From NCBI GenBank assembly GCA_963971535.1, contig OZ020591.1:270501-334500 (forward strand): 64,000 nucleotides of DNA. Reading direction: 5' to 3'. This document shows positions 3,373 through 64,000 of this stretch, piece after piece. Source of the stretch: Notolepis coatsorum (Eukaryota; Chordata; Actinopteri; Aulopiformes; Paralepididae). The position numbers were made by a program, and so were the translations under genes. Position 1 is the stretch's first letter. The number at the start of each line of letters is the position of its first letter. The notes under the pieces were generated by a model. The model saw nothing but the letters and a program-made list of their open reading frames with translations, had not been told where the DNA came from and made no database searches.

Positions 3373-3731
3373 TAGGGATGCTCGATATTGGCTTTTTTAC
3401 CGATACCGATATACCGATATTGTCCAACTCTTAATTTCCGATACCGATATCAACCAATATCAACCGATACCGATATATATGCAGGGTTTTCCCCCCCAAA
3501 AAACGGAATCATTTCAGGTAATTAACATTACATATCTCTTGTTGTGTAATTAACACAACATTATGCATACTTTGACAATAAATAAAATTATTATTTGTTC
3601 TTACTTGCTTGCCTGGGTAAATAAAGGTTAAATAAATGTAAAAAATTAATAAAAAAATTTAAAACCGATACCGATATTTTCCGATATCAAATTTGTATGC
3701 CAATATCGGCAGATAATATCGGACATCCCTA
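3373..3731. mobile_element. hAT MITE (TAGGGATGCTCGATATTGG)
   Basis: The ends are TAGGGATGCTCGATATTGG on the left and TAGGGATGTCCGATATTATC on the right (reverse complement), with gataccgatat clusters inside each end. The flanks gaacaaaa and gaacaaat match 7 of 8, as expected for an aged 8-bp duplication. The interior holds a retroelement-like tail (aaataaaggttaaataaatg) that a second copy at 37484 also holds. Confidence 0.85.
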
Positions 3732-10039: not shown

Positions 10040-10890
10040 GATATGTATCCCTTACATATCTGTACATATCCCTTACCTACTCTCACTACTTAGTTACTAT
10101 ATCTATGTATTTGCATGTCCCTTGCCTACTCTTGCTAGTAGTTACTGTATCTATATGATATGGATGTGGTGACTGCTGGTGGGAGTGGGTGGGGATATGT
10201 ACAGATATAGATATCTGTACATATCCCTTACCTACTCTTACTAGTTACTATATCTATATCTGTACATATCCCTTACCTAGGCTACTCTTAGTAGTTATTA
10301 TATATTATCTGTACATATCCCTTACCTACTCTTACTAGTTACTATATCTATATCTGTACATATCCCTTACCTACTCTTACTAGTTACTATATCAATGTCT
10401 GTGCATATCCCTTGCCTGCTCTAGCTGGTAGTTGCTATATCTATATGATATGGATGTGGTGACTACTGGTGGGAGTGGGTGGGGGATATGTACAGATATC
10501 TATATCTGTTCATATCCCTTACCTACTCTTACTAGTTACTATATCTATATCTGTACATATCCCTTACCTAGGCTACTCTTAGTAGTTATTATATATTATC
10601 TGTACATATCCCTTACCTACTCTTACTAGTTACTATATCTATATCTGTACATATCCCTTACCTACTCTTACTAGTTACTATATCAATGTCTGTGCATATC
10701 CCTTGCCTGCTCTAGCTGGTAGTTGCTATATCTATATGATATGGATGTGGTGACTACTGGTGGGAGTGGGTGGGGGATATGTACAGATATCTATATCTGT
10801 TCATATCCCTTACCTACTCTTACTAGTTACTATATATATATATCTGTACATATCCCTTACCTACTCTTACTAGTTACTAGTTACTATATA
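10040..10890. repeat. Tandem array with 290-bp higher-order repeat
   Basis: The basic motif catatcccttacctactctt recurs about every 45-60 bp. A larger block that begins gatatggatgtggtgact recurs at 10157, 10447 and 10738, a period of 290-291 bp. Frames that stay open through it encode only repeat-derived residues. Confidence 0.93.
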
Positions 10891-11009
10891 TGTAACAGAT
10901 GGTATCGTGAAGCGCAGTCATGAAGGGCTGGGGTGAGTAGCGGTGCTCTATGGGTTAAACTCACTCTCATCCTCAAAAGACACATAGACACGTTACAAAG
11001 CAGTGAGTT

Positions 11010-17046: not shown

Positions 17047-17885
17047 TCAAGATTCAAGAGGTTTATTCATCACATACATACACAACACATATAGTGAAAT
17101 GAAGGTGGCCATGCCCACTTCGATTGTGCAAAAAAAACAAATAATAATAGAATAAAATAGAAATAAAATAGACATGATAAAAATACTAAGATAAAATACA
17201 AAAGGCAATGAGTCCTATGTACACTTCTATACAATATACACTTCTACCCTATGCCAGTATGCTATCCTATCAAGATAGGGCCAATATGGGGAAACAAATG
17301 TTTTTTTCATGTTTTGGCCTTAAATAGTTTTAAAATATCATTTCTGAAAATAAGTTACAAAAGTTTACAAAAGCGTTTTGGAAAATATCTCTTTATTTGA
17401 TTATCATAAAAAGGTGTTTTCTATACAGAGATATCGACATCGGTAAATATCGGTATCGGCCAGAACAGCTATATTAATATCGGTTATCGGTATCGGCCAC
17501 CTATAAAGTGACCTCTTCTCATGTGATTAAAGTGACCTGTGGTGTGTTTGTGTGTGAGAGAGTGTAGAATGTGTGGTATGTGTGCTTGTATGTGGAGAGA
17601 TCAGTGTTCAAAGTTCTGATGGCCTTGGGGAAGAAGCTGAGCCTGAGTCTCTCTGTTCTTGCTGCGTGTATGCAGAGGTGCTTGCCTGGCCACAGCAGCT
17701 TGCACAGGCTATTGTTGGGGTGGTGAGGGTCCTTCATTATTCTGCAGGCGCTGGATTTGCACCTCCTATTGTATAAGTCCTGCGGGGGTGGTAGTGCAAT
17801 ACCCGTAGTACGCTCTGCTGAGTGCACCACTCTCTGTAGGGCCTTCCTGTCCTGGGCAGTGCATTTTCCAAACCAGGCAGTGCAG
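17047..17885 (-). mobile_element. LINE 3' end (L2/Rex type)
   Basis: On the minus strand, about 17880 to 17590 encodes residues resembling KALQRVVHSAERTTGIALPP, then DLYNRRCKSSACRIMKDPHH and RLRLSFFPKAIRTLN: the C-terminus of a non-LTR ORF2. A 3' UTR follows, ending in a TTGAA-type tail at 17047. A related copy is at 20523-21645. It is 5'-truncated. Confidence 0.8.
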
Positions 17886-18041
17886 GGAACAAACTTAACT
17901 TTTTGACTTACCAGCCATTTGGTAGATTTTAAAAACTACCAGCCGGGCAGATTTTTTTACCAGCCAAAAATTATAAATAGCTTTTTAGTATATCGCCATG
18001 TGTTATTATTACTATATAATACTCTCATATGTTATTTTCAA

Positions 18042-18453
18042 TTAAAGGGGAACTATCTTATAAATGGCCTTCTTCAGTGTTTAGCATCGTTTCCTAGCTA
18101 TGTGGACTTATATTAATATGATCTATGTCTCTAATTCTCATATTGGCGCATTCTTCCAATTCTCCTCTCACAATATTCACCCTCACTGAACTGAGTCATC
18201 TGAAAATGTGATGATTTGTGATGTCAGAGAGACACCGCTGCATGATAATGTTCAGGCGGCGCAGTGGTTTAGGCCCAGGCTCAAAACGGCTTAAGATCTT
18301 GAGGTAGAAAAATGCTGTTTTTGAGGACTTGATTAGAAATACAAAACAATGAATTAAAAAAAATAAAAAATTACAGAGGTGTTCCATAAACTCACAGGAA
18401 TTGTGTAAAAGTGCCCAAATAGTGAAAGAAATAGTAAAATAGTTCCCCTTTAA
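18042..18453. mobile_element. TTAA-flanked MITE with AGGGGAACTAT ends
   Basis: TTAA at 18042-18045 and 18450-18453 brackets inverted ends AGGGGAACTAT/ATAGTTCCCCT. TTAA followed by AGGGG is typical of Kolobok-like MITEs in fish. The interior is non-coding. Confidence 0.75.
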
Positions 18454-19060
18454 TATCATAAACAACATAAGGAATATTAAACTTCAAACTTCCACTCCTC
18501 TCGAAACTTTTTTATATTTGAATATCAACATTATCTGTCCATCCTCAGTAATCCTCAGTTTACTATAATATACTCCTGTCCTGAGTCCTGACTAGTGACT
18601 TCGTCGTCTTTCCAAACGCACGCACACACACAGGGAAGGGGAGAGTGCCCCCCCATTTCCCTTTCCCCAGTCCACACTGTGTCTGCTGTTCTCTATGGCT
18701 CTGCGCCTCTGCCTCTGATCAGGATTAGCTCGTTAGCTTACGCTAACGTTGTAGTGATTGTAATGGTACATAAACGTTAATTTCGGGCGATGTGGACATA
18801 AAGGAATGACGACGGTGCAAAGCATGTAGATGCATTTGACCCGTTGTGGGATAATATGAACCTGAACGTTGCTAGCTGCCGGAGCCCAGATATTATGACT
18901 GGAGCTGCGCTTGGGGCGGAAATGAGACCCGCACAGGATTTTCAAAATAAGAGTATCGATATGAACTAAACGCCAGATGGTGGGCAGACCTATATTTTTT
19001 ATCGCCAAACCTTAAATCTACAGGCCATTGACGCTTGGCGGGTGGTTATTTTGTTCCCTG
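18454..19060. other. Unassigned interval
   Basis: No gene. gatcaggattagctcgttag and other fragments are seen but no paired element ends. Confidence 0.4.
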
Positions 19061-25919: not shown

Positions 25920-26590
25920 CAGGGGTCAGCAACCTTTTTGACATAGAGTGCCTGTTTGAAATATAGTTGTAACTAGTGTGCCTCAACAATATTCCATGCA
26001 TCGTATTTTTTTCCCCTCATAATCAGGTATTTTTAATGATCATTTTTACATTATTACATCATTATTGTTATTATTAACAATATTATTATGATGGTTGTAT
26101 CAACCCTAAATCTGAGTTGGGGGGGGGGGGGGGATGCAATGCAGACAAACAGCTGCATACAGTGCGACCATTTCACTCACATTTGCCCATTCATTTTTGG
26201 ACACATCACACACCATCAGTGTGTGTACTGTACGTGTGCTGTCATAGCTCCACCTACAGGCCTAATGGAGAACACCAGGAGAACACCAGGATGTGAATGG
26301 AGGGTGAATGTGAGGTATATCGTGTAAATAAGTTTTGATTGATCGCAAGACTACACTGTAAAAAAAAAAATAATAATAAGTTACCAGAACTTAAAAATAT
26401 TGAGTTCAGTTACTGTGCATTAAGGTTTTCAGTTTTCAATCCATAATAAGTTAACAGAAAAATAAGTACACAACCACATTATTTCAACCTAATAAAACTA
26501 TGTTTATTGTCATTGTTTTAAGAACACAAGTTGACTTGGTAATACTCACATTTTGAGTAAAAAAATGGCTTTTAACATGTGCAATGTTCA

Positions 26591-27067
26591 GGGCGGCTAC
26601 GTGGCGTAGTGGGCAAGGCGCTCGCCACGAAATCTGGAGACGCTGGGCTCGCCTGTTCGAGCCCAGCGCTCCACATTTGCTTTCAGTTTAGCTGGTCGTC
26701 CGTACTAATACACATTGGCCGTATTAGGGGGTGGGAAACTGATGGGTGGGGATCGGGCGTTGTGGACAGCGACTCCTACAGGTCGGTTGGTGCGCCTGCG
26801 CAGTGGAATCAGGAAGTGTCGGGGGCAGCGTGAGCCTCCCACGCGTTACTCCTCACCACTGAGAGATCGAGCTGCGCAGGTGAAAAGATGCGACTGCTGT
26901 TACCTCAAGTACCGGAGGGGACTTGTGCTATGTATGACTTAGTCCACATTGCAGCCGGCTTGTGGGAGGCAAGAAACAGCGTTCGTGACAGGGGAGGGTT
27001 GAATTGGATGATACGAAATTGGGATGGGAGAAAATATAGAAAATGGGAGAAAAAGTGGATAAAAAAA
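26591..27067 (+). mobile_element. tRNA-headed SINE (family S), full-length
   Basis: The head has an A box ctacgtggcgtagtgggc and a B box tgttcgagcccagc. The body contains acacattggccgtattaggg and caggtgaaaagatgcgactg, and the tail gggatgggagaaaatat then an A run. aacatgtgcaatgttca is duplicated at 26574-26590 and 27068-27084. Confidence 0.92.
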
Positions 27068-27324
27068 AACATGTGCAATGTTCAATGAAATAGAAAAATA
27101 AATAATAAAATGTGTTGATTAATCCCACTGGTCACAATGGTGACCATAATAATCTTTTTGTTATAAGGCTCTGCAAATGTTACTGAATGATGTAGCAATG
27201 TATTTCCAGCTAAATTGAAATAATAAACAAATAAAGGGTCTCAATTAAATATGTGGTAGTAAAAAGAACCTGTGGGAGGATTTCAACAAGATAAATGCGA
27301 CAACAGTGCAAAATATTTCACTAT

Positions 27325-27517
27325 TGTGGTGATAAGAAAGTAGTGAGCCAGAGACGTAGGTCGAGTTGAGTACTTTACTTATCCTGCACATAGCATTTAC
27401 AATAACAACCACCCGTCACCCGGAAGTGGCATTTAACCTTTCCCCTAACCAGTACAACCCACACTCTTAAAGGCACAAGCCCACCTTGGTGAATGTCTCT
27501 TAATATAGGTCACCACA
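27325..27517 (-). repeat. Gypsy 3' LTR
   Basis: It runs TGTGGTGATAAGAAAG to GGTCACCACA and is a near copy of 31552-31750. On the minus strand a G-rich stretch (ggggggggcctg, 27518-27530) directly precedes it, as a polypurine tract would. Confidence 0.95.
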
Positions 27518-27813
27518 CAGGCCCCCCCCAGAATTCACCAAAACAAAAACTGCAACTAATTAATAGCCAGTGATCAGTCCATCAATGAACAGATTACCGC
27601 ATGAAATAGTGGAGGGGGACGGATCAAGCGGCCGAACCGACCGCGCTTAACCAGAGGGGGATTAAGGGAGAGAAGTGGGACCAGCGGCCGGGCCACGGAA
27701 GGGGCCAAGGCCGGAACAGAGGACGGGCAGGGGTCTGAGCCGAAACCGGGGGGCGCCCCCGCCGCGGGGGTAGGGCCAACTGAACTGGTTCGTCCTTGTC
27801 CAAGTGGGCAGGC

Positions 27814-29052
27814 TTAAGACGGTCTATAGTGACCCGCTCCGGCCTGCCCCCATGTCCACAACAAAGTTTTTAGTGCCTGCCTCCAGGACACGGAAAGGCC
27901 CGTCATAAGGGGGCTGCAGCGGGGTCCGATGGCTGTCGTGCCGGATGAACACATATTTGGCCAATGGCAGGTCCCTGGCGATGTAGGACTGGGGAGGGCA
28001 GTGGCGGGATGTTGGAATGGGAATAAGGGCATCGGCAACACCCCGGGACACTGTTTCGATGGGAGGCGACGGACCAGGAAGCTGTGGCCTCCGGAAGAAA
28101 CTCCCCAGGGACCCGCAGCGGCTGGCCGTACACCAGCTCGGCGGACGAGGCCTGGAGGTCCTCTGGAGGTCCACGGGAGGCGGTCAACCCAGTTGCCATC
28201 CGTAAGGGCAGCCAGAAGAGCGGCCTTCATGTCCCTATGGAACCGCTCGCAAAGCCCGTTGCCCTGCGGGTTGTACGCCGTAGTGCGGTGGATCTTCACC
28301 CCCAGGTGCTCTGCAACTGCAGTCCAGAGCTCCGAAGTGAACTGGGGGCCCCTGTCGCTTGTGATGTCCCCCGGTGTGCCAAAACGGGCCACCCAGCAGC
28401 CGATGAAAGCCCGGGCCACCTCCGCTGCCGTAGTGGAGGACAGTGGAACAGCCTCCGGCCACCTGGTGGTCCTGTCCACCATGGTGAAGAGGTGAGTATA
28501 TCCGCGGGAGGGGGGCAGGGGGCCCACCAGGTCCACATTCACGTGATCGAACCGCATCTCCGGCACTATAAACGGTGCCAAAGGGGCTTTGGTATGGCGG
28601 TGCACCTTGGCGCGCTGGCACGCCACACATGAGCCAGCCCAGGTCCTAACATCCTTCCGGAGGCCAGGCCACACAAACTTGACCCCCACCAGCTTAGTCG
28701 AGGCCATCACACCTGGGTGGGAAAGGCCGTGAATCATGTTAAAAACCCGGCGCCGCCAGGCCGTAGGCACCATAGGGCGCGGTTGGCCAGTGGAGATGTC
28801 GCAGAGGAGAGTGGCATTAGCTGTGTCGAACACCACATCCTCCAGCTGCAGTGCAGTAGGGCCCGTCCGGTAGGCCTGAATGTCTGAGTCTGTGGCTTGG
28901 TCTGCCGCCATGGCGGCATAATCGAGTCCCAAGTGGACGGACCCGATGACCGCCCTAGAGAGGCAGTTGGCGACAAAGTTGTCCTTGCCCGCCACGTGCT
29001 GAATGTCCGTGGTTAACTCGGAGATCGCCGATAGCTGCCGCTGCTCGACCAC
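27814..29052 (-). pseudogene. Gypsy integrase (frameshifted at its end)
   Basis: It begins at the end of RNase H (VAGKDNFVANCLSR) and continues into a zinc-binding HHCC domain (HGLSHPGVMAS to CVACQRAK). The catalytic triad is visible as HVNVDLVGPLP, ITSDRGPQF and NGLCERFHRD. Downstream of about 28190 the sequence continues in other frames (SSAELVYGQPLRVPGEFLP, then LPLAKYVFIRHDSHRTPLQ and YDGPFRVLEAG), so at least two more frameshifts separate catalytic core from C-terminal domain. Confidence 0.9.
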
Positions 29053-30398
29053 GGCTCCGAGGTCTTGGCCATGGAGAACGTCAGCGGCTTGTGGTCCACA
29101 AAGGCAGTGAACTGGCGGCCTTCCAACAGGAATCTAAAGTGCCTAGTGGCGAGGAACAGACCCAGCAGTTCCCTGTCGAAAGTACTGTACTTACGCTCGT
29201 TGTCGCAGATCTGTTTGCTAAAAAAGGCCAGTGGCTGCCAGGCCCCGCCCACCCACTGCTCGCACACCGCCCCCACTGCATAGTCAGAGGCGTCTGTCGT
29301 GAGGGCGACCGGGGCAGTGGGAGAGGGGTGCGCCAGCAGAGCAGCGTTGGCTAGCGCGGTCTTGGCAGCCCCAAAAGCGCTGTCCATCCCCGAGGACCAG
29401 TCTAACTCGTCCTTGGGCACCTTGCCCCACAGGGCCTCATACAAGGGGCGCATGAGGTGGGCAGCATGGGGAAGGAACCGGTTGTAAAAGTTCACCATGC
29501 CCAGGAACTCCTGTAGAGACTGTACTGTGCGGGGGCGAGGAAAACTGGCAACGGCCTCCACCCTTGCGGGGAGTGGGGTGGCTCCCTGTGGAGCGACGTG
29601 GTGTCCGAGGAAGGTGATGGAGGACTGCCAGAACTGGCACTTGGTCGGGTTGACGATGAGGCCGTGTTTACTGAGCCGCTCAAACAGCTGCTGGAGGTGT
29701 GTCATGTGCTCCTCTATGGATGCACTGGCTACAAGAATGTCATCCAAATACACAAACAAAAACGGCATGTCCTGGAGCACAGAGTCCATCAGCCGCTGAA
29801 ACGTCTGCGCCGCCCCCATGAGTCCGAAAGGCATTCTTAGGAACTCAAAAAGTCCAAAGGGTGTAATGACAGCTGTTTTGGGCACGTCCCGTGGATGGAC
29901 CGGCACCTGGTGGTACCCGCGCACCAGGTCCACCTTGGAGAAGATGACGGCCCCCGCCAGGTGGGTAGAGAAGTCCTGTATGTGCGGGACAGGGTACCGG
30001 TCGGGGGTTGTGGCGTTATTAATGCGACGGAAATCGCCGCAGGTGCGCCATCCCCCGCCAGTTTTTGTAACCATATGTAATGGAGAAGCCCACGGGCTGT
30101 TCGAGCGGCGCACAATACCAAGTCGCTCCATGGTGGAAAACTCCCCCCTGGCGATTGCCAGCTTGGCTGAGTCGAGACGCCAAGCCCGGGCATAGACTGG
30201 GGGGCCTTCGGTAGTAACATGGTGTTCCACCCCGTGTTTGGCCACTGCAGATGAGAACGTGGGTGTGGTGAGGTCAGGGAACCCGGCAAGCAGGCGTTCA
30301 TACGGGTCCCCGGTGGCAAGTGTGTTCAACAGGCAGAGAGCTCCACCCCCCCCCAACCGCCCCAAGTGTGCAGGGGTAAGAGGAAAAAGAGAAGGCAT
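29013..30398 (-). pseudogene. Gypsy reverse transcriptase and RNase H
   Basis: The frame of 461 codons holds, in order, the thumb-proximal HHVTTEGPPVYARAWRL entry segment, FSKVDLVRGYHQVPVHP, the polymerase active site FVYLDDILVAS, QEFLGMVNFYNRFLPH, and RNase H motifs (LTTDASDYAVGAV, FDRELLGLF, FVDHKPLTF). It ends a few codons after the RNase H HKPLT block because of a one-base shift near 29040, after which the integrase frame takes over. The catalytic residues are present. Confidence 0.92.
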
Positions 30399-30783
30399 CG
30401 ATCAAGCGACAGTTTTTCACATCTAACAACAGACTGAAGGCACAGAGGAAGTCTGCTCCCAGGAGCGGCGTGGACACCGCAGCTATCACAAAACCCCAGC
30501 CGAAACGGCGCTCCCCAAAACACACCTCCACATACCTGGTGCCGTAAGTACGTATGGGCGTACCGTTCGCTGCGTCCATCTGGGGCCCGTGTCTGCCGTC
30601 CATGGTGTCCACGCCCTGTGCCGGCAGGATGCTGCGTTGTGCGCCCGAGTCCACCAGCAGCCGCCGGCCGGACAAGGAGTCAGTGATGAACAACAGCTTG
30701 CAGTCATGGCCGGCACCCACAGCCACTAATGAGCGCCGGCCCTGGCGTTTCCCTGCCCCTTGAAGCTGCATGGCTTGCGACAC
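30298..30783 (-). pseudogene. Gypsy aspartic protease
   Basis: The active-site motif LLVDSGAQRSILPA is present, followed by the flap-like region and LLGADFLC. The frame differs from gag (overlap 30726-30783) and from the reverse transcriptase. It runs out at the G/C homopolymer near 30346-30365, where the translated text of the two frames overlaps (GAVGGGW against GRLGGGGAL), so a slip in that run is the likely break. Confidence 0.85.
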
Positions 30784-31529
30784 TGCTTGGCCCTGTCCCC
30801 AAACCTGGCATGGTAATAACAGAGCCCGTCGTCGGGTTGGCGTCTGGCTGTCACCGCAGCCGCGGTGTCTGTATAAGCATCCAGTGGTGGGGCTGAGGTA
30901 CCCTGGTGGGGCAGCAGTGCATGGACAAACTGCTGCTGCCTGTTGGCCAGGAAAACCCTGTCTGCTTCTGCAGCCAGGCCGCGATAGTCTTTGGTGGAGG
31001 AGAGGAGGGAACTGGCCAGTGCCGTGCGCACAGGCACTGGAAGCTGCCGTAGAAAAATGTGCGTGAACAGAAAGGAGGGATCTGCTGATCCCAGCACAGC
31101 CAGCATCTTCTCCATCAACTCTGATGGTTTGCCGTCACCGAGGCTGTTGAGGGACAGCAGGCGGTCCGCTTTCTCTAACTCTGACAGTTCATACAGCTTC
31201 AGAAGGAATGTCTTTAGCGCATTGTACTTGTCAGCTGCCGGCGGATCCTCCAACAGCATCATCGCCCGTGCCGTCGTCGAAGCATCCAACGCTGCCACCA
31301 CATGGAAGTATTTGGTTATGTCCTGCATTATTCCTCTCAGCTGGAATTGGGCTTCGATGTGTTGAAACCACGGCCGGGGATTATGCTGCCAAAAGTCGGG
31401 CAACTTCACGGTCGCAGTGTAAATGTTCGCTTGTAACATATTAGCGTCGTTAGCATTCGGCGCGGGTGCTTGCGGTTGCGCGACGCCGTTGTCTTGAGAC
31501 ATAATGCTAATGACGTTTAACGTTAACAA
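30726..31529 (-). CDS. Gypsy Gag polyprotein
   Basis: An open frame of 267 codons; the likely start is the internal MSQDNG (near 31502), which is followed by a low-complexity Ala/Pro stretch. The middle has the Gag fold signature PWFQHIEAQFQLRGI with the helical KADRLLSLNSLGD, DPSFLFTHIFLRQLP and STKDYRGLAAEADRV segments. The C-terminus carries one Cys-His cluster (CYYHARFGDRAKQCRKPC), a variant of the nucleocapsid zinc knuckle. The frame is intact and overlaps the next (protease) frame, consistent with a programmed or mutational shift. Confidence 0.85.
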   Translation of the reverse strand: MLTLNVISIMSQDNGVAQPQAPAPNANDANMLQANIYTATVKLPDFWQHNPRPWFQHIEAQFQLRGIMQDITKYFHVVAALDASTTARAMMLLEDPPAADKYNALKTFLLKLYELSELEKADRLLSLNSLGDGKPSELMEKMLAVLGSADPSFLFTHIFLRQLPVPVRTALASSLLSSTKDYRGLAAEADRVFLANRQQQFVHALLPHQGTSAPPLDAYTDTAAAVTARRQPDDGLCYYHARFGDRAKQCRKPCSFKGQGNARAGAH

Positions 31530-31551
31530 ATGTTCTTCACAGGGTCACCAA

Positions 31552-31750
31552 TGTGGCGATAAGAAAGTAGTGAGCCAGAGACGTAGGTCGAGTTGAGTAC
31601 TTTACTTATCCTGCACATAGCATTTACAATAACAACCACCCGTCACCCGGAACCGGAAGTTGCATTTCACCTTTCCCCTAACCAGTACAACCCACACTCT
31701 TAAAGGCACAAGCCCACCTTGGTGAATGTCTCTTAATATAGGTCACCACA
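31552..31750 (-). repeat. Gypsy 5' LTR
   Basis: It runs TGTGGCGATAAG to GGTCACCACA. Next to it on the minus strand, ttggtgaccctgtgaag (31551 downward) starts with TGG as a tRNA primer-binding site should. The tRNA was not identified. Confidence 0.95.
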
Positions 31751-31866
31751 CTATAATATTTCAAAGAAAAAGAAAAAAATTATTATAATATATATATATA
31801 TAATTTTTTTAATGCTGCCCCCTGTGCCTATGAAAATGCATGCGTGCCTAGGGTTGCCTACCCCTG

Positions 31867-35584: not shown

Positions 35585-36245
35585 TAGAGCCATATGGAAT
35601 CCGCGATCACGGAATCGCGGACGGAATCGCGGAATTGAGCAATAAAAATGGAATCAACTATAAAAAAAATGAATTAAAAAACGTTTTTTTTTTTTTTACT
35701 TTTTTTTTTTTTATGTTGTGGGACTTGTACAGCACTTTGTTCAACTTTGTCAGTGCTGTAAAGTTGAAACCTTTTTAAATATTAGACAAACAAAGCACTT
35801 TGCTTTCATGACATGTTGTAAGCAGTCATTTGAGGCTTCATAAAAGCAGCACAATGAACACAAATCTGTCAGTGCCGAGTCCGACCTCATCTTAAATAAC
35901 AAACAGCATTGCTTGTTGTAGTTAACAAAGAGAGGCAGAGTTGATTTTGCAAAAATATATATACCTTTTTATTTTTTTTATAATCGAATTTTATTTTCAT
36001 ATTCGAATCCCATGCCCATCGAACGAAGCTTCGAAGTATTTAAGACAGCCCTATTAAATGGACTGTTATATCTTATTAAATTGTGGACATTTATTCATTC
36101 CCACTTATTAGACACTATTTCTGATGGTAAAATGAGCGTACAAAGCAAAATACAGAATTCTGAAATATTAAAACGGAAAAAACGGAATTTGGAAAAAAAT
36201 AAAATGGAATTTGGAAAAAAATAAAACGGATTTCATATGGCTCTA
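35585..36245. mobile_element. hAT MITE with 8-bp TSD (ccctttca)
   Basis: The ends TAGAGCCATATGGAATCCG and TAGAGCCATATGAAATCCG are inverted repeats. ccctttca is duplicated at 35577-35584 and 36246-36253. It contains an end of the ttcgaagc hAT family. Confidence 0.9.
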
Positions 36246-36468: not shown

Positions 36469-37423
36469 TAGGGATGCCCCGATCGATCGGCCACCGATCG
36501 TTATCGGCCGATACTCAGTATAAATATGCAATCTGTGAATTCCGATAATGAGTCATATTCGCCGATCGCGGAAACCGATCAAGCGAAGCTCTCACTCGCT
36601 GTCTGTCTCAGACACACACGACCTGCAAACTGCCGCTGCTCCTCCTCCCTAGCCCCGCCCGCCCCCGTGTAGAGTTTGTAAACAAAGAGGACTGAGAGCC
36701 AGGCGGCTCCTCTGCTCGAGTCTGTAGTGCATTCGACCTGCGCTAACGTTAGCTACCTAGCTATCGTTACTGTTTAAACAAAATTACCCAGTCAACTATT
36801 CACGTTTAGTAGGCATTGTCTAACGGTATTTAGCCGGCTAGCTACCGATAGCTCCTGATATCAACAAATGATCCAGAAAGTCTAGTAGTCCATGTTCATA
36901 CCTCCGTTAGCTTGCGTTAGCTGATGTTAGTTTACTGTTCAAAACGAAATGTCCCATTGAACTAAAGTTCTGTCTTAACGTCATCTAGCCGGCTAGCAGT
37001 AGCTACAGATAGCTCTTGATATCAATGTCTTATAACATTGATTTAATGCGTATTCGAGCTGAGGGCTTGCTGAATGTGAAATGACCAAAGCACACGTTAC
37101 CAATAGGGTCCCACTGCAGCGCCGGAGAATCCTTTTTGGAGCTGGAGGCTACTAGAGTACACACAGACAGTGGAGCTGTTTGCAGATAGCGAGCATTTTG
37201 ACTTGTTGCGTGGTGGCAATGTCTCGCAGATAATACAAGTACAAGTCTAATTATATAATATATATATTTTATAAAAAAAAAAAAAAAAAAAACTTTTTAT
37301 ATAAAATAATTTTTTATTTCTTTTTAATCAAAAACAATCGGTATCGGATCGGTATCGGCCGATATGGCTCACGACGATCGGTGATCGGTATCGGTGGCAA
37401 AAAACGTGATCGGGGCATCCCTA
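36469..37423. mobile_element. hAT MITE (TAGGGATGCCCCGATC)
   Basis: The ends TAGGGATGCCCCGATCGATC and TAGGGATGCCCCGATCACGT are inverted. atccatag (36461-36468) and atccgtag (37424-37431) form an 8-bp duplication with one mismatch. Interior 36580-36720 is GC-richer (gccccgcccgccccc), the rest AT-rich; no transposase. Confidence 0.9.
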
Positions 37424-50243: not shown

Positions 50244-51323
50244 TGTTCTGAAGGTCCAGATTAACACTGAAAGTCTGCGTTTATTATTTTGTATAACTTG
50301 TATATTGTTTATATATATAAGATATATATCTTTACGCCATCCGTTTGCATAATAGTATTCTTCGCTCGCCTCATTGGGTCCCGCCCTTGACATTGGAGGC
50401 GCCACCAGACGAGCCCCCCAGACATGGTTCTAGACATGTTCAGACAAGTTCAGACTTGCCCATAGCAGGTGCATTGATTCCGGACAGGTAAATCGGCTGC
50501 GCCCTAGAAATCAGTCTGAGTATATATATTGTGGATGGTGCAAGCAGCCGCGAGTCGGCAGTATCAGAACAGGAGAAGCAGCAGAGCGAGAGCGTGATAC
50601 GTCCGGTACAGTTGTACACAGACCTACCAGCGGTGTATCGTTACAGATAGCTAGTAGCTACTTAGATACGACTATAATATGGTAGAGCCATTATTGGCGC
50701 AGTATAGTGACTTGTGTAAGCGAAGTAACGTGGAGAAACGTATAGTTAAACCCAGCGGCGTTTGGATCTAACTACTCATTGAAGACCGTCTGCGGGCTAG
50801 CTTCCAGTACAAACGATGCTAGCTAGCTACCATCTATGCCAACAGGCTTTTGGATTAATAGCTATTAACCCTGCCATCGGGTGCTAGGATTACAAGGACC
50901 GGTTCCGTACGAGACCTATTTTCTTCCAGCGACGACAGGATTATCCGACCAGTCTCCAATTCCTCCGGAGCTTGGAGCTCCCGAGGGAAACCATTGTCTC
51001 CAGCTACCCTTGCTTTCCCCGTATCGCCTCGTCTCTTCTCACTCCCTGCAGAGCTCCGGTCGAGTATTCGTAACCTAGGAACTATTCATTACCGCTGACT
51101 TTGATACTCTGACATTCTATTATTAAAAGAGAAACGTGATAATTCAGATGTATGTTGCTATGACGATTAAAATGCTTATAAACCAGGTATCCTTGTCCCC
51201 GTGCCGTCAATTGAGTGTCCGCCATTTTGTCTAACTATACTGTCTGGCTATTAATATTCTTTAGTAGTGGTTTAATCTAAACAATCTTTAATACAGTCCG
51301 GGTTGTGTAGCCCCTTAGCTACA
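50244..51323 (+). repeat. BEL 5' LTR (1,080 bp)
   Basis: TGTTCTGAAGG to CTTAGCTACA, with TG...CA ends. The left boundary is fixed by comparison with 57599; the right is set by the primer site two bases further on. It contains a TATA-rich promoter-like stretch near 50520. Confidence 0.9.
50518..50560 (+). promoter_or_regulatory. Probable LTR promoter (TATA box)
   Basis: gagtatatatattgtggatg, conserved in both LTRs, is followed by a GC-richer stretch (gcagccgcgagtcggcag) as expected for a start region. Inferred from sequence only. Confidence 0.45.
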
Positions 51324-57598: not shown

Positions 57599-57999
57599 TG
57601 TTCTGAAGGTCCAGATAAACACTGAAAGTCTGCGTTTATTATTTTGTATAACTTGTATATTGTTTATATATATAGGATATATATCTTTACGCCATCCGTT
57701 TGCATAATAGTATTCTTCGCTCGCCTCATTGGGTCCCGCCCTTGACATTGGAGGCGCCACCAGACGAGCCCCCCAGACATGGTTCTAGACATGTTCAGAC
57801 AAGTTCAGACTTGCCCATAGCAGGCGCATTGATTCCGGACAGGTAAATCGGCTGCGCCCTAGAAATCAGTCTGAGTATATATATTGTGGATGGTGCAAGC
57901 AGCCGCGAGTCGGCAGTATCAGAACAGGAGAAGCAGCAGAGCGAGAGTGTGATACGTCCGGTACAGTTGTACACAGACCTACCAGCGGTGTATCGTTAC
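57599..57999 (+). repeat. BEL 3' LTR, first 401 bp (interrupted)
   Basis: Aligned base for base with 50244-50644 there are four substitutions and no gaps. The next LTR bases (agatagctagtagctactta, 50645 on) reappear at 63976 after the insertion. Confidence 0.97.
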
Positions 58000-58744
58000 T
58001 AGAGTTGTTCCGATACCGATACCAGTATCGGAAAAGCCGCCGATACTGGCTAAAATGCTGGTATCGGTATCGGCAAGTACCCTCTAATGCTGCGCTCCGA
58101 TACCATATGACGTAATTTATCAACAACACTGTGGTCTGTTGAATAAGCATTATAAAACAAACGGGTGCTTAATCGATTAAAGTGTCAATGCCATTTGTCA
58201 TTTTAACAGCAGATACTTTCTTAAATGTGTCACCTCACAGCGCTTTATGCCAGATCTCTACATTTTCATTTTTTAGATTATTCCAGATTGCTAAAGTACA
58301 GAATCTAAGCTTTCAAATGATGTGTCATATGTTGACATCTGAGAATGTTTTGAACACGATGTGCCCAATTATAACTTCTAAAACTGGCTGTGTTCTAGAT
58401 TGCCTAAGAGGTGAAAAGGTGTCTCAAAGGAAGGCAACTTTTCACACTTCAGACAGTTTCAACTGGGCGTCAACAAACCCCCTCCAGCAACGCCCCTCAC
58501 CTGAATAGCATTAACATAATTAAGTGCTGCCATGGCAGTTATCTCTCCTCAGGACCCGATCTTCATTCTCTTGTTTGTATTGAGCTATAGACATTATTAG
58601 CATAGTAGGTAGTAGTAGTAAGATGGATACTAGTAAAAGATGGTATGAAGGTTAGTAGTTTCAGATATTAATTGAAGTTAATTTGGCTCGTCTTCTGCCA
58701 GCTTGTACAGACAGGAGCTTAAGCACAAACCAAAGTGCTTTAAT

Positions 58745-58950
58745 AAAATTAAATAGAATAGAATATTTCTAGAGTCTTTATTGTCATTATACAGACAGCG
58801 TTATATAGCTCAACAGTGCACAATTAATAAACAATAATAATTATTAGGAAGATACAATAAAATAGTCCATTTCTATGTACCCCCCCCCCCCCCCCCATGC
58901 TGCTTTGACACCAGAATTTCCCCAAGGGGATTAATAAAGGATCATCTTAT
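58745..58950 (-). mobile_element. LINE 3' tail fragment
   Basis: agtctttattgtcattatac followed by a C run and aatttccccaaggggattaa resembles the tail at 6718-6750. It is a short 3' piece without coding. Confidence 0.55.
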
Positions 58951-59104
58951 CTTAGTAGGTAACATCACAATAAAAAATAAACAATTTTAGGAAGATAAAA
59001 TAAAAGTCAATGTCTACAGTGTATGGATGCAGGGTCCATCTGTGTGTGTGTGTGTGTGTGTGTGATCTCAGCACTTATCTGTATCTTTGTGTGTGTTGGG
59101 TCTT

Positions 59105-59212
59105 CTAACATCGTACAGTCTTGTTCTGAGGTGCTGTAGACGTTGGTCTTGAGGGTATCTAACATCGTACAGTCTTGTTCTGAGGTGCTGTAGACGTTGG
59201 TCGCGGGCATGT
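59105..59212. repeat. 54-bp tandem duplication over the gene's stop codon
   Basis: ctaacatcgtacagtcttgt starts at 59105 and at 59159. The unit is 54 bp, a multiple of three, and differs mainly at its last few bases. Confidence 0.92.
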
Positions 59213-59420
59213 GATGTCTTTTCCCGCATCAGAACAGTATTGTCTTATCTCCTTAAAAAGATAATTCTGCCTGTCATTGTCCAGACCGGGTGGGGGTATC
59301 ACTGGAAAATTGGAGATGGTCGGGTAGCGTTTTGGGTCTTTCAGCAGTTGAAACTCGAATGGTTCAGCATCATCACGGTGTAATTTCGCCGTCACCATGC
59401 CAGGTCTGCTGGCATCGAAG
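59159..59420 (-). CDS. Last exon of the five-exon gene
   Basis: Acceptor tctattacag. It encodes FDASRPGMVTAKLHRDDAEP, a FQLLKDPKRYPT block, NFPVIPPPGLDNDRQNYLFK and ends PQNKTVRC then TAG (59161-59159). The final 54 bp, including the stop, are repeated in tandem just downstream (59105-59158). Its entry phase does not match exon 4. Confidence 0.75.
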
Positions 59421-59666
59421 CTGTAATAGAATAAAGAACACATTTAAAATATTGTCTATTTCGTAAAGAAAACACTGGTCCCAGCCTCCAGGACACTGTG
59501 AGTCAAGCATCCATGTCAACACATTTCGTACATTGATTACCAGAAACAAAATAAACCTTCTTCATCATAGCTAATAGTGCTAAGTAAATTAGCCTATTGC
59601 AATATTTGCAAACCAAAATTCTCTAAGATAAGAACAGAAAAAACAGGAGGAAAACATTTCCTCATT

Positions 59667-59667
59667 C

Positions 59668-59747
<80 letters not shown>

Positions 59748-59749
59748 TA
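59667..59749. repeat. Poly-A and (AAT)n microsatellite
   Basis: About 37 A residues followed by about fifteen aat units. It lies in the intron where the missing exon of the five-exon gene would be expected. Confidence 0.95.
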
Positions 59750-59773
59750 TGTTGGTATCTTGGAGTCTCTTAC

Positions 59774-59915
59774 CCTTACTCGTGGCCATCCCTTCGTCAA
59801 TAAGGTAATTCACCTGCTTTGTCAGCCCTTCACAATGTACGCCAAACAGGCCACACTTGCGCGGTGTTGCAAAATACATCGGCCCAACTTGAAGAGGGTG
59901 AGAGGGGTAGTGTAC
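59774..59915 (-). CDS. Exon 4 of the five-exon gene
   Basis: Acceptor cttccgccag, donor GTAAGA. It encodes VHYPSHPLQVGPMYFATPRK, then CGLFGVHCEGLTKQVNYLID and EGMATSKG, leaving one base. The next expected exon is not present downstream. Confidence 0.78.
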
Positions 59916-60107
59916 CTGGCGGAAGAAAAATGATACATTGAAATAATGTTGTAGTGTAGTAGTACAGTAGTGCTGTAGTAATTGTGATGGTGATTGTCAT
60001 TTTAAATATTACACAACATGATGTAATGCTGTAATACAGCAAACAAACGATTTTTGTCAAGTAAGTTAACAACAAAAAGCTACATTGTAATAGGATCGGA
60101 TTCTCAC

Positions 60108-60442
60108 CTGCTGTGCATAATCAAAGCTGTAGTGCATTGTGATGTCTTTGCTTGCCGGTGTGGCAGGGCCTAGACTCAGCTGCAATTCCGCACAGGTCTT
60201 TTGGGTGGAAGCAGTCATAGCCTGCAACAGCTTGCGCTCTCTCTTAACACGGGCCAGATGTTGTAATTGCACCTGCAATTTTTCTGTCTGCAATTTATCC
60301 GGCTTGCCAGCCGCTTGACTCAACTGGTAGTTGTTTTTGTAGCATTCCCAACACAAATCTGTCCTCGGTTTGATGATTGTTATCTGGGGCAGAAGGGTTT
60401 TCCACAGCTGAAGAAAGCTCCCCTGACCAACAACGCGATGTC
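60108..60442 (-). CDS. Exon 3 of the five-exon gene
   Basis: Acceptor ttttattctag, donor GTGAGA. It encodes HRVVGQGSFLQLWKTLLPQI, a CxxC pair (LCWECYKNN), a Lys/Gln-rich helix (QTEKLQVQLQHLARVKRERK) and DITMHYSFDYAQQ. It ends in phase 0. Confidence 0.8.
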
Positions 60443-60456
60443 CTAGAATAAAATAG

Positions 60457-60840
60457 TAATAGTACACATTACATATACACAATGCCAGAGGATGGCTACT
60501 CAGGAGGACTGGTCTATGCTGCAAATTTACACAATTGATGTGTAAACACGAGTGGTTTATGGAATGTTAGATCGTTAATGTCTTTGTCTTGGTAATAGTA
60601 CACATTACATATACACAATGCCAGAGGATGGCTACTCAGGAGGACTGGTCTATGCTGCAAATTTACACAATTGATGTGTAAACACAAGTGGTTTATGGAA
60701 TGTTAGATCGTTAATGTCTTTGTCTTGGTAATAGTACACATTACATATACACAATGCCAGAGGATGGCTACTCAGGAGGACTGGTCTATGCTGCAAATTT
60801 ACACAATTGATGTGTAAACACAAGTGGTTTATGGAGGGGG
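60457..60840. repeat. 135-bp tandem repeat in intron 2, about 2.8 copies
   Basis: taatagtacacattacatat recurs at about 60457, 60593 and 60728. The first unit starts 15 bp from the acceptor of exon 3, so the duplicate set includes the branch-point region of this intron. Confidence 0.92.
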
Positions 60841-61059
60841 GCTTGAACTTAAGTGATGTCAATAAGTACATTGGAGATATTGTATTGTGAGAAGGATATT
60901 TGATGAAAGCAGCTTGGCTCCTTCAACATTGCATTTCACAGTTGAACAGATCATGCTTATTATAGAACAGTAGAAAATTATCAACATTATGGAATGTTGC
61001 AGTCCAGGCGGCTGTACCTCATGTCATGAAATAAATTAATAAATAACAAACACACATAC

Positions 61060-61337
61060 CTGCTTCCTCCCCAGCCGGTTTGTATTGACGCCAGAGTGCC
61101 GCTTTTGTCAGATTGCTTGGAAGTAACTTGGCAGTGTAGTCTCTGTGGCCAGGATGTCTACCAGGCAAGACAATAGAATGGACCTCTGCATAATTGGTGA
61201 GAAAATCCACCACACGTTGACAGTCGTCTTTACAGAGAAACTTTTTGTGAGTTCTCGGTTGTTTTTTCCTATCACGTGGTGTCATTCCATTTGTCTTGTA
61301 GTGCTTGATAATAGCTTTGAGAAGTCCACAGCTTATC
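61060..61337 (-). CDS. Exon 2 of the five-exon gene
   Basis: Acceptor tttgtttag, donor GTATGT. It completes a Gly codon with exon 1 (phase match) and encodes ISCGLLKAIIKHYKTNGMTP, then VVDFLTNYAEVHSIVLPGRH and ALWRQYKPAGEEAG. Confidence 0.8.
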
Positions 61338-61828
61338 CTAAACAAAAAAAAATGTGAAATCATTATTATACACACATACACAGTCCCTGCTAGCTAGAGC
61401 CAATGATAATGTCTTCAATACAGTCACGTGCTTTGCACTATATAGAATATTATTGTATAGTACTGTAGTTCTCTATAGTTCTCAAAGAACACCTACGGGA
61501 GACTGCAATTCAAAACTGGACCCTACAAATGTCAGTATTCCAATGTACAGCCCCACCCAACCCACCTACCCAACCTCCTCCAATGTACAGTTTCTATGTC
61601 AAATGTATGTGAGTATTCCAATGTACAGTGCCCCCCCCCTACCCAACCCCCCCCCCACCTCCAATGTACAGCCCCACCCCACCTACCCAACCTCCCCAAT
61701 GCACATGTTTCTATGTCAAATGTATATTTTTTAGTATCACAAACAGTACTGTATTTGAAAATCTGGTATGTCATAAATGTATAGATGTAGCAGTACTGTC
61801 TATCTGTATGTCATGTGTGTCATATGAT

Positions 61829-61970
61829 GAATTGAAAATGGGGGACCCTGATGGAAACAAGATGAAAGTCTTTCTCAGGTCTGCATCCTCTTAACAATTG
61901 TATGTATTGAGCTGTACTGTACTGTACCCATTCTGCAATCTGTTAATAAACTTAATCAATCAAGGGTCTG
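61829..61970 (+). repeat. Dispersed repeat also found in the foldback arms
   Basis: tgaaaatgggggaccctgat through ctgttaataaacttaatcaa matches 21022-21090 and the inverse of 21135-21260. It ends in an aatcaatca tail, as a short retroelement would. Confidence 0.8.
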
Positions 61971-62079
61971 CTATGACATCACTACTATGACAACACAATT
62001 CAGAATGTTCCAGAATGTATACTAGCCTGTACTAACCGGTCATAGTTACACATGCACACAGAATAATAATGGCACTTAC

Positions 62080-62753
62080 CCATGGAGAAAGCAGAATGTT
62101 GCCCGGCAGACCACGACGTTATGGAATCTGTACACTGTCCGTGAAGCTTTGCGAATGGTGTTTACTCTCTTCGTGCTCTGTGTGACTTCAGAATCATTGA
62201 TGCCTGTTTGTATAGCCGAGAGCAGACACATGTCCCTCTCTTTCGGCGTCAATGAGGCCATGTCCAGTCTGCTATTGTATATCAATTCTTCCGACAGTTT
62301 TGTTGTACACGACAACGCCTGCCGTTCGGAATTCTCTTTCCGCTCTTTATAGCATTTGCAATCAAACGTTCTTATTTTTTTCAATTCTTCTTTGGTGTCA
62401 CTGTCTACGGTTACAACAGACACCATATCTGCGACATGTCTCATCGTTAATTCCGTTGAATAGCCCGGTGTGACGGTCCCGCTGTGAATAGAATCATCCT
62501 CTAAATCTGATTGATCCGCGCGCTCATCTTCCTCTTCAAAATCATCAGCGCGCTGCGGTATCGGATCGATATCAGGCACTACTTCGTTTTCCGAATCTTC
62601 TTCTTCATCTGAAGAGTCCGGTTTGGGCGGTGGTTCGGGGACACCTGGGTGAAAATAGTCCGTTAAGTACCCACTCATTAAATGCGATCCATCGATGGCT
62701 CTCCCCGCAGCAGATATCTTGTTGAGTTCAGCAGCGATCGTCTTCGCATCCAT
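62080..62753 (-). CDS. Exon 1 of the five-exon gene
   Basis: ATG at 62753-62751; 224 complete codons plus two bases, ending at donor GTAAGTG. It carries the start, the proline/aspartate-rich linker (PGVPEPPPKPDSSDEEEDSE) and the Cys cluster. High acidity and clean reading frame suggest recent selection or recent loss. Confidence 0.8.
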
Positions 62754-63069
62754 CTCTCAATCTCAACGCAAGACACATTAAAAGTGTCACCAGATGCCAA
62801 CAGGTGTATGTATAGGTATTGTGGGGGCGTTGCGCTCCGGGCTGGCTACCCCCCCAAGGTTTAGATTCGATTCAAATGCAAATTGTTATTACGCCTCCCG
62901 TTCCACTGAAATCATGTCGTGAACAGCCTACTTTTAAACAAAGGTTGTTACTATTTTTAAATATTCTAACTGTTCGTTTTTATAGTATATATGTGCTTAT
63001 ACATTCAATTTATAATAATATATAAAAAAAAAAAAGACAAAAAAAAAAAAACGTTTTCACGTGTAGACG

Positions 63070-63263
63070 AAAAAGGGGCGGGCCGAGTTGTGGTTGCAAG
63101 CGCTGCCAAGTGACACAAATGTCATCGTCCCGACAGAGCGGTGTTGACGGGGAGCTCATGGGTTCGCTTGGTGGCTGGTGTTATTAGCATTGAACAGCTA
63201 ACCGAAAGCTAGCTTTAACATTACCTTGGCTAAAGTTGGGGCTATTCATATAATCCAGCAATA
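63070..63263 (+). promoter_or_regulatory. GC-box promoter region of the ppp1r21-like exon
   Basis: ggggcgggccgag (63074 on) is a strong GC box in an otherwise AT-rich neighbourhood; the stretch to 63263 is CpG-richer and has no TATA box. It lies between the divergent starts of the five-exon gene (62753) and the exon at 63264, so it might serve one or both. Inferred. Confidence 0.45.
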
Positions 63264-63313
63264 ATGGCTGCAGACCTGCAAGCAAAGTACAGCAAGTTGG
63301 CAAAGGAGTATTC
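63264..63313 (+). CDS. ppp1r21: First coding exon of a ppp1r21-like gene
   Basis: ATG in a fair context (ataATGG) opens MAADLQAKYSKLAKEYS, cut inside the Ser codon by a GT. Vertebrate PPP1R21 (KLRAQ1, a coiled-coil protein of early endosomes) begins with the pattern MA..ELQ.KYQKLAQEYS (from memory). About 13 of 17 positions agree. Only this exon is present: within 650 bp the sequence turns into hAT end sequence. Since the whole stretch lies inside a transposed unit in a BEL LTR, this is a captured gene piece rather than the resident gene, unless the assembly is wrong. It may still act as a promoter plus splice donor. Confidence 0.65.
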
Positions 63314-63499
63314 GTTAAATCACAATGTCACCAGTAACGTTACAGTCTTTTCATATACCGGCAGCTCATGCTATGCTAACTTAGCTCACGTTGACGTCAT
63401 CATTGAGACCACCTCGCGTACACAATTAATGACATAATGCAGACAGCCATATCGGTGACAATGTTTAGCTTTTAGTGCCAAATGATAAGAGTCTGAGGC

Positions 63500-63967
63500 G
63501 GAGTCTCAAAAGAGAATGTTGAATATTTATTGTGCAAAAATCACAACAGATCCGACTGCTACTGAAACGGAGCCTTGTAGACAGACTGAGTAGGGTATAT
63601 CTGCAGAGCCAGTGGGTAGCGAGTGCAGCAATGTATAATGTCCGTGTGGATCATTGGAGTAGGGTATATCTGCAGTGCTGAAGCCCCATACTCATTGATT
63701 AATGATACTAATACAAATCTATACAATCACCTGTTGTTGAATAAATACCATTACTTTCTAGTTATTACTAAAAAACAGTATATATAAAACAGTATTTGTT
63801 AAAAAAAAATATATATATATATTTATAATTTTTTTTTATATAATATCGTTTTTTTTTTTTTTTTTTTGTATGCACTGGTATCGGATAAGTATCGGTATCG
63901 GCCGATACCCAAAGCTTAGGTATCGGAATCGGATCGGAAAGGAAAAAATGGTATCGGAACATCTCTA
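63500..63967. mobile_element. hAT MITE right end sequence of the composite unit
   Basis: From about 63500 the sequence (agagtagggtatatctgcag repeated twice, T run, clustered tatcgg motifs) follows the common fish hAT MITE pattern and ends in the TIR at 63967. Confidence 0.65.
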
Positions 63968-64000
63968 ATCGTTACAGATAGCTAGTAGCTACTTAGATAC
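63968..64000 (+). repeat. BEL 3' LTR resumed after the insertion
   Basis: 63968-63975 repeats the 8-bp target; 63976-64000 is identical to 50645-50669 of the 5' LTR. The LTR runs out of the window. Confidence 0.97.

Follow-up and report, generated by a model that had tools for sequence, protein, structure and literature searches.

Host-gene fragments carried between the ends of terminal inverted repeat (TIR) transposons, known as Pack-TIRs, have been described in both animals and plants. In the passages of the animal survey by Tan et al. 2021 (PMC8277862) cited here, 208 of the 370 reported Pack-TIRs are hAT elements, eight Pack-TIRs are reported from zebrafish, and the frog element hAT-N8_XT carries 5' untranslated region sequence of CAPSL. 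Four multicopy cases in reference genomes are given there, together with Ssk-FB4 in flies, those described having few copies, and template switching into a transposon copy, followed by transposition, is proposed for the multicopy Pack-TIRs. Plant Pack-TYPE and Pack-hAT elements, in the cited part of PMC8903248 (PLoS Genet 2022), consist of nonautonomous hAT ends carrying coding DNA. Another transposon class has captured genes in bats where, in the cited part of PMC4778049 (Nat Commun 2016), the Helitron HelibatN3 captured and amplified the promoter, six codons and the splice donor of NUBPL, the promoters of 15 genes were amplified by Helitrons to 4,690 copies, and exon trapping was shown experimentally. 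We describe here TE2, a compact nonautonomous hAT family of the fish Notolepis coatsorum whose interior, by alignment, derives from the start of the gene ppp1r21. The copy under study lies at 58000-63967 of a 64,000-nucleotide window (GenBank assembly GCA_963971535.1, contig OZ020591.1, positions 270,501 to 334,500; G000:C23:270501-334500 in our coordinates) and is split by a second transposon, TE1. The genome searched comprised 3.42 Gb in 4,787 contigs.

TE2 resembles the animal Pack-hATs in having hAT ends and target-site duplications around a copied host-gene fragment, and differs from the animal Pack-TIRs of that survey in that its captured piece is present in thousands of copies and in successive subfamilies, whereas theirs have few copies. 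The plant Pack-TYPE work, in the part cited, describes no single captured fragment in thousands of copies. With HelibatN3 and NUBPL, TE2 shares the capture and amplification of a host gene's promoter region (presumed for TE2) together with its splice donor and a short stretch of N-terminal coding sequence. Helitrons are not known to have TIRs or target-site duplications, whereas TE2 has TIRs and 8-bp duplications, which do not fit a Helitron-type capture; exon trapping was shown for HelibatN3, whereas TE2 is known from sequence alone. What is new is a hAT that joins Pack-TIR capture with the Helitron-like amplification of a captured gene start, animal Pack-hATs and bat Helitron promoters being already known. 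Among the papers listed on the subject, judged by their titles and the openings of their abstracts, none joined ppp1r21 to such an element.

A sequence-only reading of this DNA had interpreted 58000-63967 as a 5,968-bp unit with hAT ends that entered a long terminal repeat (LTR) of a BEL element in one piece, bringing with it a multi-exon gene and the first exon and promoter of another gene, its two ends coming from two different subfamilies of miniature inverted-repeat transposable elements (MITEs) that were excised together. We hold instead, with high confidence, that two nested, independent and recent insertions are present, the outer one belonging to a family with a captured ppp1r21 piece. 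The features of the nested pair are as follows.

57992-57999, no strand: left 8-bp target-site duplication ATCGTTAC of TE2 (the outer hAT), inside the BEL 3' LTR
58000-58141, plus strand: left hAT end of TE2, with an 18-bp TIR and subterminal GATACC/TATCGG motifs; its inner boundary is the start of the ppp1r21 alignment
58142-58222, plus strand: first part of the TE2 cargo, ppp1r21 upstream sequence by alignment to the parent
58223-58226, no strand: left 4-bp target-site duplication AAAT of TE1
58227-63116, minus strand: TE1, nested DNA transposon of 4,890 bp, termini GTGTCACCTCACAGCGC / GTGTCACTTGGCAGCGC
63117-63120, no strand: right 4-bp target-site duplication AAAT of TE1
63117-63770, plus strand: second part of the TE2 cargo, with sequence just upstream of ppp1r21 exon 1 (a presumed promoter), exon 1 and pieces of intron 1
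63264-63313, plus strand: coding part of the ppp1r21-derived exon 1 (MAADLQAKYSKLAKEYS...); the splice donor is gone from this young subfamily
63771-63967, plus strand: right hAT end of TE2, with an AT-rich tract, subterminal motifs and TIR
63968-63975, no strand: right 8-bp target-site duplication ATCGTTAC of TE2

The outer event is a hAT-type insertion within the BEL LTR, and the duplication, the matched TIRs and the uninterrupted sister LTR to which the sequence-only reading had pointed are all real. The sister LTR at 50244-51323 resumes as 57599-57999 (401 bp, 4 mismatches) and 63968-64000 (33 bp, 0 mismatches), and these two pieces overlap by exactly 8 bp, namely ATCGTTAC. The interrupted element is of the BEL/Pao type; a 300-residue piece was identified as Peptidase_A17 and a 213-residue piece as RVT_1, and a third piece gave no match in the same domain search. 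The TIRs at the tips 58000 and 63967 are identical at 17 of 18 positions (TAGAGTTG / TAGAGATG), and the ends read TAGAGTTGTTCCGATACC / TAGAGATGTTCCGATACC. The TIRs of hAT elements are short and of the form (C/T)A(A/G)NG..., and those of TE2 fit it. The target consensus of the Ac branch is nTnnnnAn, and among 25 TE2 duplications (from the window and the 24 perfect loci described below) T stood at position 2 in 21 and A at position 7 in 19. The two overlapping motifs GATACC/TATCGG gave 12 matches in the 142 bp of the left end and 11 in 125 bp of the right end, compared with means of 0.14 and 0.10, respectively, after mononucleotide shuffling.

Both ends of the 5,968-bp unit are the left and right ends of one hAT family. 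A genome search with the upstream and exon piece 63060-63460 yielded, among the best 40 scored of 3,448 first-look candidates, 39 matches outside the window, all with 99-100% identity and all beginning at 63117. Thirty of these 39 loci were fetched; they had been chosen through the ppp1r21 piece and not through the ends, so that the cargo is there by construction and the ends are not. In each of the first 11 (L014-L024), 58000-58228 was joined straight to 63117-63967; TE2 is made up of 58000-58222 and 63117-63967, about 1.07 kb in all. The tips delimited 27 of the 30 loci as elements of 1,060-1,100 bp with both ends on one compact element, the remaining three (L057, L059 and L064) being end-truncated copies, and this disposes of the idea that the ends stem from two different MITE subfamilies. 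Perfect 8-bp duplications, 22 of them distinct, were present at 24 of the 27 delimited loci, whose mean pairwise identity was 99.2% (minimum 98.0%) over 1,053 columns. Pack-TIRs are recognized by transposon ends of a known consensus on both sides; in comparison within this genome, the ends of TE2 are shared by the family, and no cargo-free relative was found. Other copies with the same two ends, which the sequence-only reading had suggested looking for, are thus frequent. Its opposite case, a single autonomous hAT of which the gene is the usual cargo, holds for the ppp1r21 piece and fails in that the copies seen are nonautonomous. In one of them (L068) the right flank resembles, by eye, a TE2 left-end fragment, a TE2-next-to-TE2 arrangement.

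The 4,890 bp at 58227-63116 that separate the two parts of TE2 behave as a repeat in their own right. The left part of TE1 had 40 other scored matches in the genome (including a partial one that adjoins another) and the right part 39, and its left tip occurred 360 times at ≤1 mismatch, compared with 0 for the control. Nine of 10 fetched loci elsewhere could be delimited, at 4.5-7.6 kb, and at eight of these nine the flanks, read by eye, showed a perfect 4-bp duplication (AAAT or ATAT; AWAT). A 6-bp duplication, AAATGT, was first considered for TE1 and was rejected on the evidence of these 4-bp flanks. In the window, AAAT at 58223-58226 and 63117-63120 agrees with the TE1-free sequence of TE2. 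The left TE2/TE1 junction, the one that the search covered, occurs a single time in the genome (≤2 mismatches), in the window itself; TE1 was found at that position in none of the 30 fetched TE2 loci, and TE1-free TE2 and TE1 outside TE2 both occur elsewhere. With a second transposon at 58227-63116 that has a 4-bp duplication of its own, and with a left junction found nowhere else, the 5,968 bp were very probably not inserted as one piece. The simplest order of events would have the BEL element first, the entry of TE2 into its LTR next and that of TE1 into TE2 last. TE2 would have entered the LTR, with an 8-bp duplication, through a hAT transposase supplied in trans; no hAT transposase gene was seen in TE2 itself. 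Later the unrelated TE1, with its DUF7869-type gene, would have entered TE2 and produced the AAAT duplication.

The multi-exon gene of the sequence-only reading is real and lies on the minus strand, with five exons readable between GT/AG splice sites.

62080-62753, minus strand: TE1 gene exon 1, from ATG
61060-61337, minus strand: exon 2
60108-60442, minus strand: exon 3
59774-59915, minus strand: exon 4; fuller copies continue with the DUF7869 core, which is absent here
59159-59419, minus strand: last exon

Capture or movement of this gene by the hAT is not supported; the gene belongs to TE1, whose left tip alone recurs 360 times, and it is of the DUF7869 type, with the core absent from the window copy. 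Three fuller TE1 copies were translated over the region that the window lacks, and the core was present in L044 and L049 and, in part, in the stretch of L048 that was read. This core corresponds to Pfam DUF7869 (E value 7.6e-12 alone, 2.1e-16 with the neighboring exons joined by hand), and may represent the catalytic domain of a group of transposons. In the window TE1 the main core peptide gave no match, with exon 3 found as a control, and a second core peptide gave two 12-residue matches only (E values 0.24 and 0.51). The inner protein of the window returned nothing useful from Pfam, PHROGs or phage records, and two matches to solved structures (E values 0.24 and 0.62) that were taken as chance; the DNA patterns and the inner protein had no relatives in viral_contigs. 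From the 4-bp duplication we would guess that TE1 is a Sola element. Sola transposons, in the cited part of PMC10741241, have 4-bp duplications, TIRs and usually a length of 2-9 kb, and TE1 is like them in its 4-bp target duplication, its several kb and its TIRs; the fuller TE1 copies match Pfam DUF7869 only. A 136-bp unit is repeated 2.8 times at 60456-60835, in a TE1 intron, and TE1 copies may differ in how many units they have.

The captured ppp1r21 piece, a first exon with upstream sequence, was correctly recognized by the sequence-only reading, and its parent gene was found on the same contig as the window. The only genome match to Pfam KLRAQ (PF10205) lies at C23:6645461-6645610. A tblastn search of 60 kb, with human PPP1R21 as query, placed the next parent coding exon at C23:6646369-6646301 and parent exon 1 at C23:6664293-6664240 (72% identity over 18 residues, E value 0.010 by itself in 60 kb). 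The exon-1 peptide had no match in Pfam or among solved structures, and the identity of the exon is settled by the presence of the parent gene in the same genome. Positions 143-464, 527-577 and 813-877 of TE2 are collinear with the upstream region, exon 1 and intron 1 of the parent, at 75-87% identity per block with gaps counted; the stretch 143-341, for example, matches C23:6664938-6664727 at 75% over 220 columns, gaps counted. By these alignments the interior of TE2 is derived from the upstream region, exon 1 and the start of intron 1 of ppp1r21, the word promoter being suggested by the position of the upstream part. The ratio of observed to expected CpG is 0.75 in TE2 143-464; the parent has 0.65 over the corresponding part and 0.47 over the full stretch of 2.8 kb. 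The cargo measures approximately 0.73 kb and is flanked by hAT ends of about 142 bp (left) and about 197 bp (right); the part still aligning to ppp1r21 amounts to about 0.44 kb in a young copy and 0.53 kb in an old one. Because the exon encodes the start of PPP1R21 as it is in human, the direction of capture is from gene to transposon. The gene is still present at C23:6.66 Mb; a host-gene fragment between transposon ends with the parental copy elsewhere is what characterizes a Pack-hAT. In parent intron 1, C23:6662842-6664162 (approximately 1.3 kb) begins, by eye, like the repeat at 61824-61948 of the window and is absent from TE2, which suggests that the captured version lacked this stretch.

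Copy numbers were estimated from exact matches, with a reversed control giving 0 in each case. A 38-mer of the exon occurs 2,902 times, a 19-mer of the exon end with an intact splice donor 1,659 times (a number that should include the parent) and the hAT left end 1,594 times, and the young form of the left hAT/cargo junction was found 461 times at ≤1 mismatch. A query with the older cargo gave matches of 87-100% identity among the best 40 scored of 4,529 first-look candidates. Among the matches listed for the first 117 Mb of C1, 100 exon places and 58 donor places had 10 in common, from which we estimate by scaling up approximately 4,275 copies with a recognizable exon 1. On this estimate TE2, as a Pack-hAT, has reached a copy number of 4,000 or more. 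Fifty left ends listed in the same 117 Mb were picked regardless of cargo, and 25 of them had the exact exon within 2.2 kb downstream, 21 at a distance of 319-412 bp. Five of the other 25 were read and all contained ppp1r21-derived sequence: three had the full cargo, L077 had it in three blocks, and L075 had the upstream part only, after which the match stops. No cargo-free member was seen among the small part of the family that was read.

Older and younger copies differ in their splice donor. At C43:65.88 Mb lies an older copy of 1,069 bp with the perfect duplication CTCAAAAA. Its identity to the parent is 88%, compared with approximately 81% for the young copies (over up to 543 columns), and it keeps the donor GAGTATTCCAAG/GTAAAT, which has been lost in all 28 aligned young copies (the window copy and those of 27 loci). 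Three more distant copies are divided in this respect: a GT donor is present in L074 and has been lost from L076 and L078. A tree placed the parent, the older copies and the young clade in that order, with support of 0.96-0.999 on the main steps. These data suggest that the family was founded when a hAT element acquired the ppp1r21 piece (upstream sequence with the presumed promoter, exon 1 and the start of intron 1), perhaps when repair of a gap, or replication, switched template and so placed the piece in a hAT copy that afterwards transposed. More than one wave of amplification would have followed, with some older copies keeping the exon-1 donor and the lineage leading to the young copies losing it.

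Several points weigh against this account of the locus and its family. Among the TE1 loci, AWAT flanks are favored by the ranking according to similarity to the window, and the ppp1r21 cargo of the 30 fetched TE2 loci is there by their selection. Approximately 190-240 bp of cargo between the last two aligned blocks (about 63471-63706) do not align to the parent, and either came from elsewhere or have been lost from it. Twenty of the 50 listed left ends on C1, outside the five that were read, have no exact exon match. The tree node joining the parent and the oldest copy has a low support of 0.56. Finally, we infer the founding hAT and the source of transposase, since neither a cargo-free member nor an autonomous hAT partner with these ends has been identified.

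Other explanations for the 5,968 bp fare much worse. Composite transposition, in which two different hAT MITEs left their site jointly with the host DNA between them and entered the LTR as a single 6-kb piece, is reminiscent of the macrotransposition of maize Ac/Ds, where, in the work available on it, the ends of two nearby hATs are used jointly. The left and right subterminal sequences are indeed unlike beyond the 18-bp TIR, and there is a weak inner match to the right tip, with 5 mismatches, at 59311. That match lies inside TE1, however, and inner tips, which such a composite should have at both sides, were absent from the unit at ≤4 mismatches (best 12 matches per tip and strand). Unlike ends are also normal, the MITE at 3373-3731 in the window differing by eye between its ends past the tip, and the GATACC/TATCGG motifs are common to both TE2 ends. 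TE2 differs from macrotransposition in that one family supplies both ends, carried by a single 1.06-1.10-kb element at 27 of the 30 fetched loci, and we regard a composite origin as exceedingly improbable. A single 6-kb Pack-hAT that contained ppp1r21 exon 1 as well as the multi-exon gene, and that entered the LTR in one move, would explain why the entire unit is bounded by inverted ends and a perfect 8-bp duplication; it is nevertheless very unlikely, given that the inner 4,890 bp are an independent repeat with their own ends and AAAT duplication and that the left junction is unique. Nothing supports a move of the joined TE2 and TE1 pair just before the LTR insertion.

For single-copy Pack-TIRs of animals, the route most often inferred is the filling of a gap in situ at the insertion site, but here the same cargo and the same ends recur at many sites with distinct duplications, so that the cargo was inside TE2 before the LTR insertion, and TE1 has transposon ends and a duplication of its own; the probability of this route is close to nil. 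An assembly or contamination artefact joining unrelated pieces is just as hard to credit. Nothing was found in its favor, the unique TE2/TE1 junction being known from the assembly alone, whereas TE2 with its cargo and TE1 each recur on many contigs, and the duplication at both TE1 junctions of the window fits the empty site of TE1-free TE2 copies. Two nested insertions, the outer one a TE2 copy that already carried the ppp1r21 piece, therefore remain our preferred explanation.

Further hAT-like copies were seen in the window. A scan for tips plus duplications gave five, at 1565-2123, 3373-3731, 17883-19060, 35585-36245 and 36469-37423, with 8-bp duplications that are perfect in three and have one mismatch in two. 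At 25920-31866 a hAT-like end pair with the duplication ATCTATAG surrounds an LTR element of Gypsy-like type with repeats at 27318-27518 and 31545-31751; as in the 5,968-bp unit, the architecture is that of a MITE with an insert inside, again produced by nesting. Self-comparison showed repetitive blocks at 1-536, with a spacing of approximately 60 bp, and at 10056-10902. A search of genome_contigs with the TIR pattern gave 4 bacterial or archaeal matches whose 60-bp flanks were without hAT context and which were taken as chance, and Rfam gave no match.

A clean duplication around a long insert is no proof of a single insertion, since a nested pair looks alike until the genome is searched. In animals, gene capture by cut-and-paste transposons was almost always single-copy in the cited passages of the Tan et al. 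survey, and here the start of one gene occupies an estimated 4,000 or more sites, which makes TE2 the TIR-transposon counterpart of the bat NUBPL Helitrons. It is possible, if rather doubtful, that TE2 acts as a mobile promoter: it may have spread working ppp1r21 promoters across thousands of sites, the older copies (at most approximately 1,659) would offer a spliceable phase-0 first exon, and the loss of the donor in younger subfamilies would reflect selection for less disturbance of host transcripts. If this were true, downstream exons could join to the 18-residue start of ppp1r21. That the donor has been lost in at least the young clade and the copies L076 and L078 speaks against selection for exon donation. 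The family constitutes a natural experiment, in which one genome contains thousands of related copies of a promoter region whose origin is known, some with a splice donor and some without.

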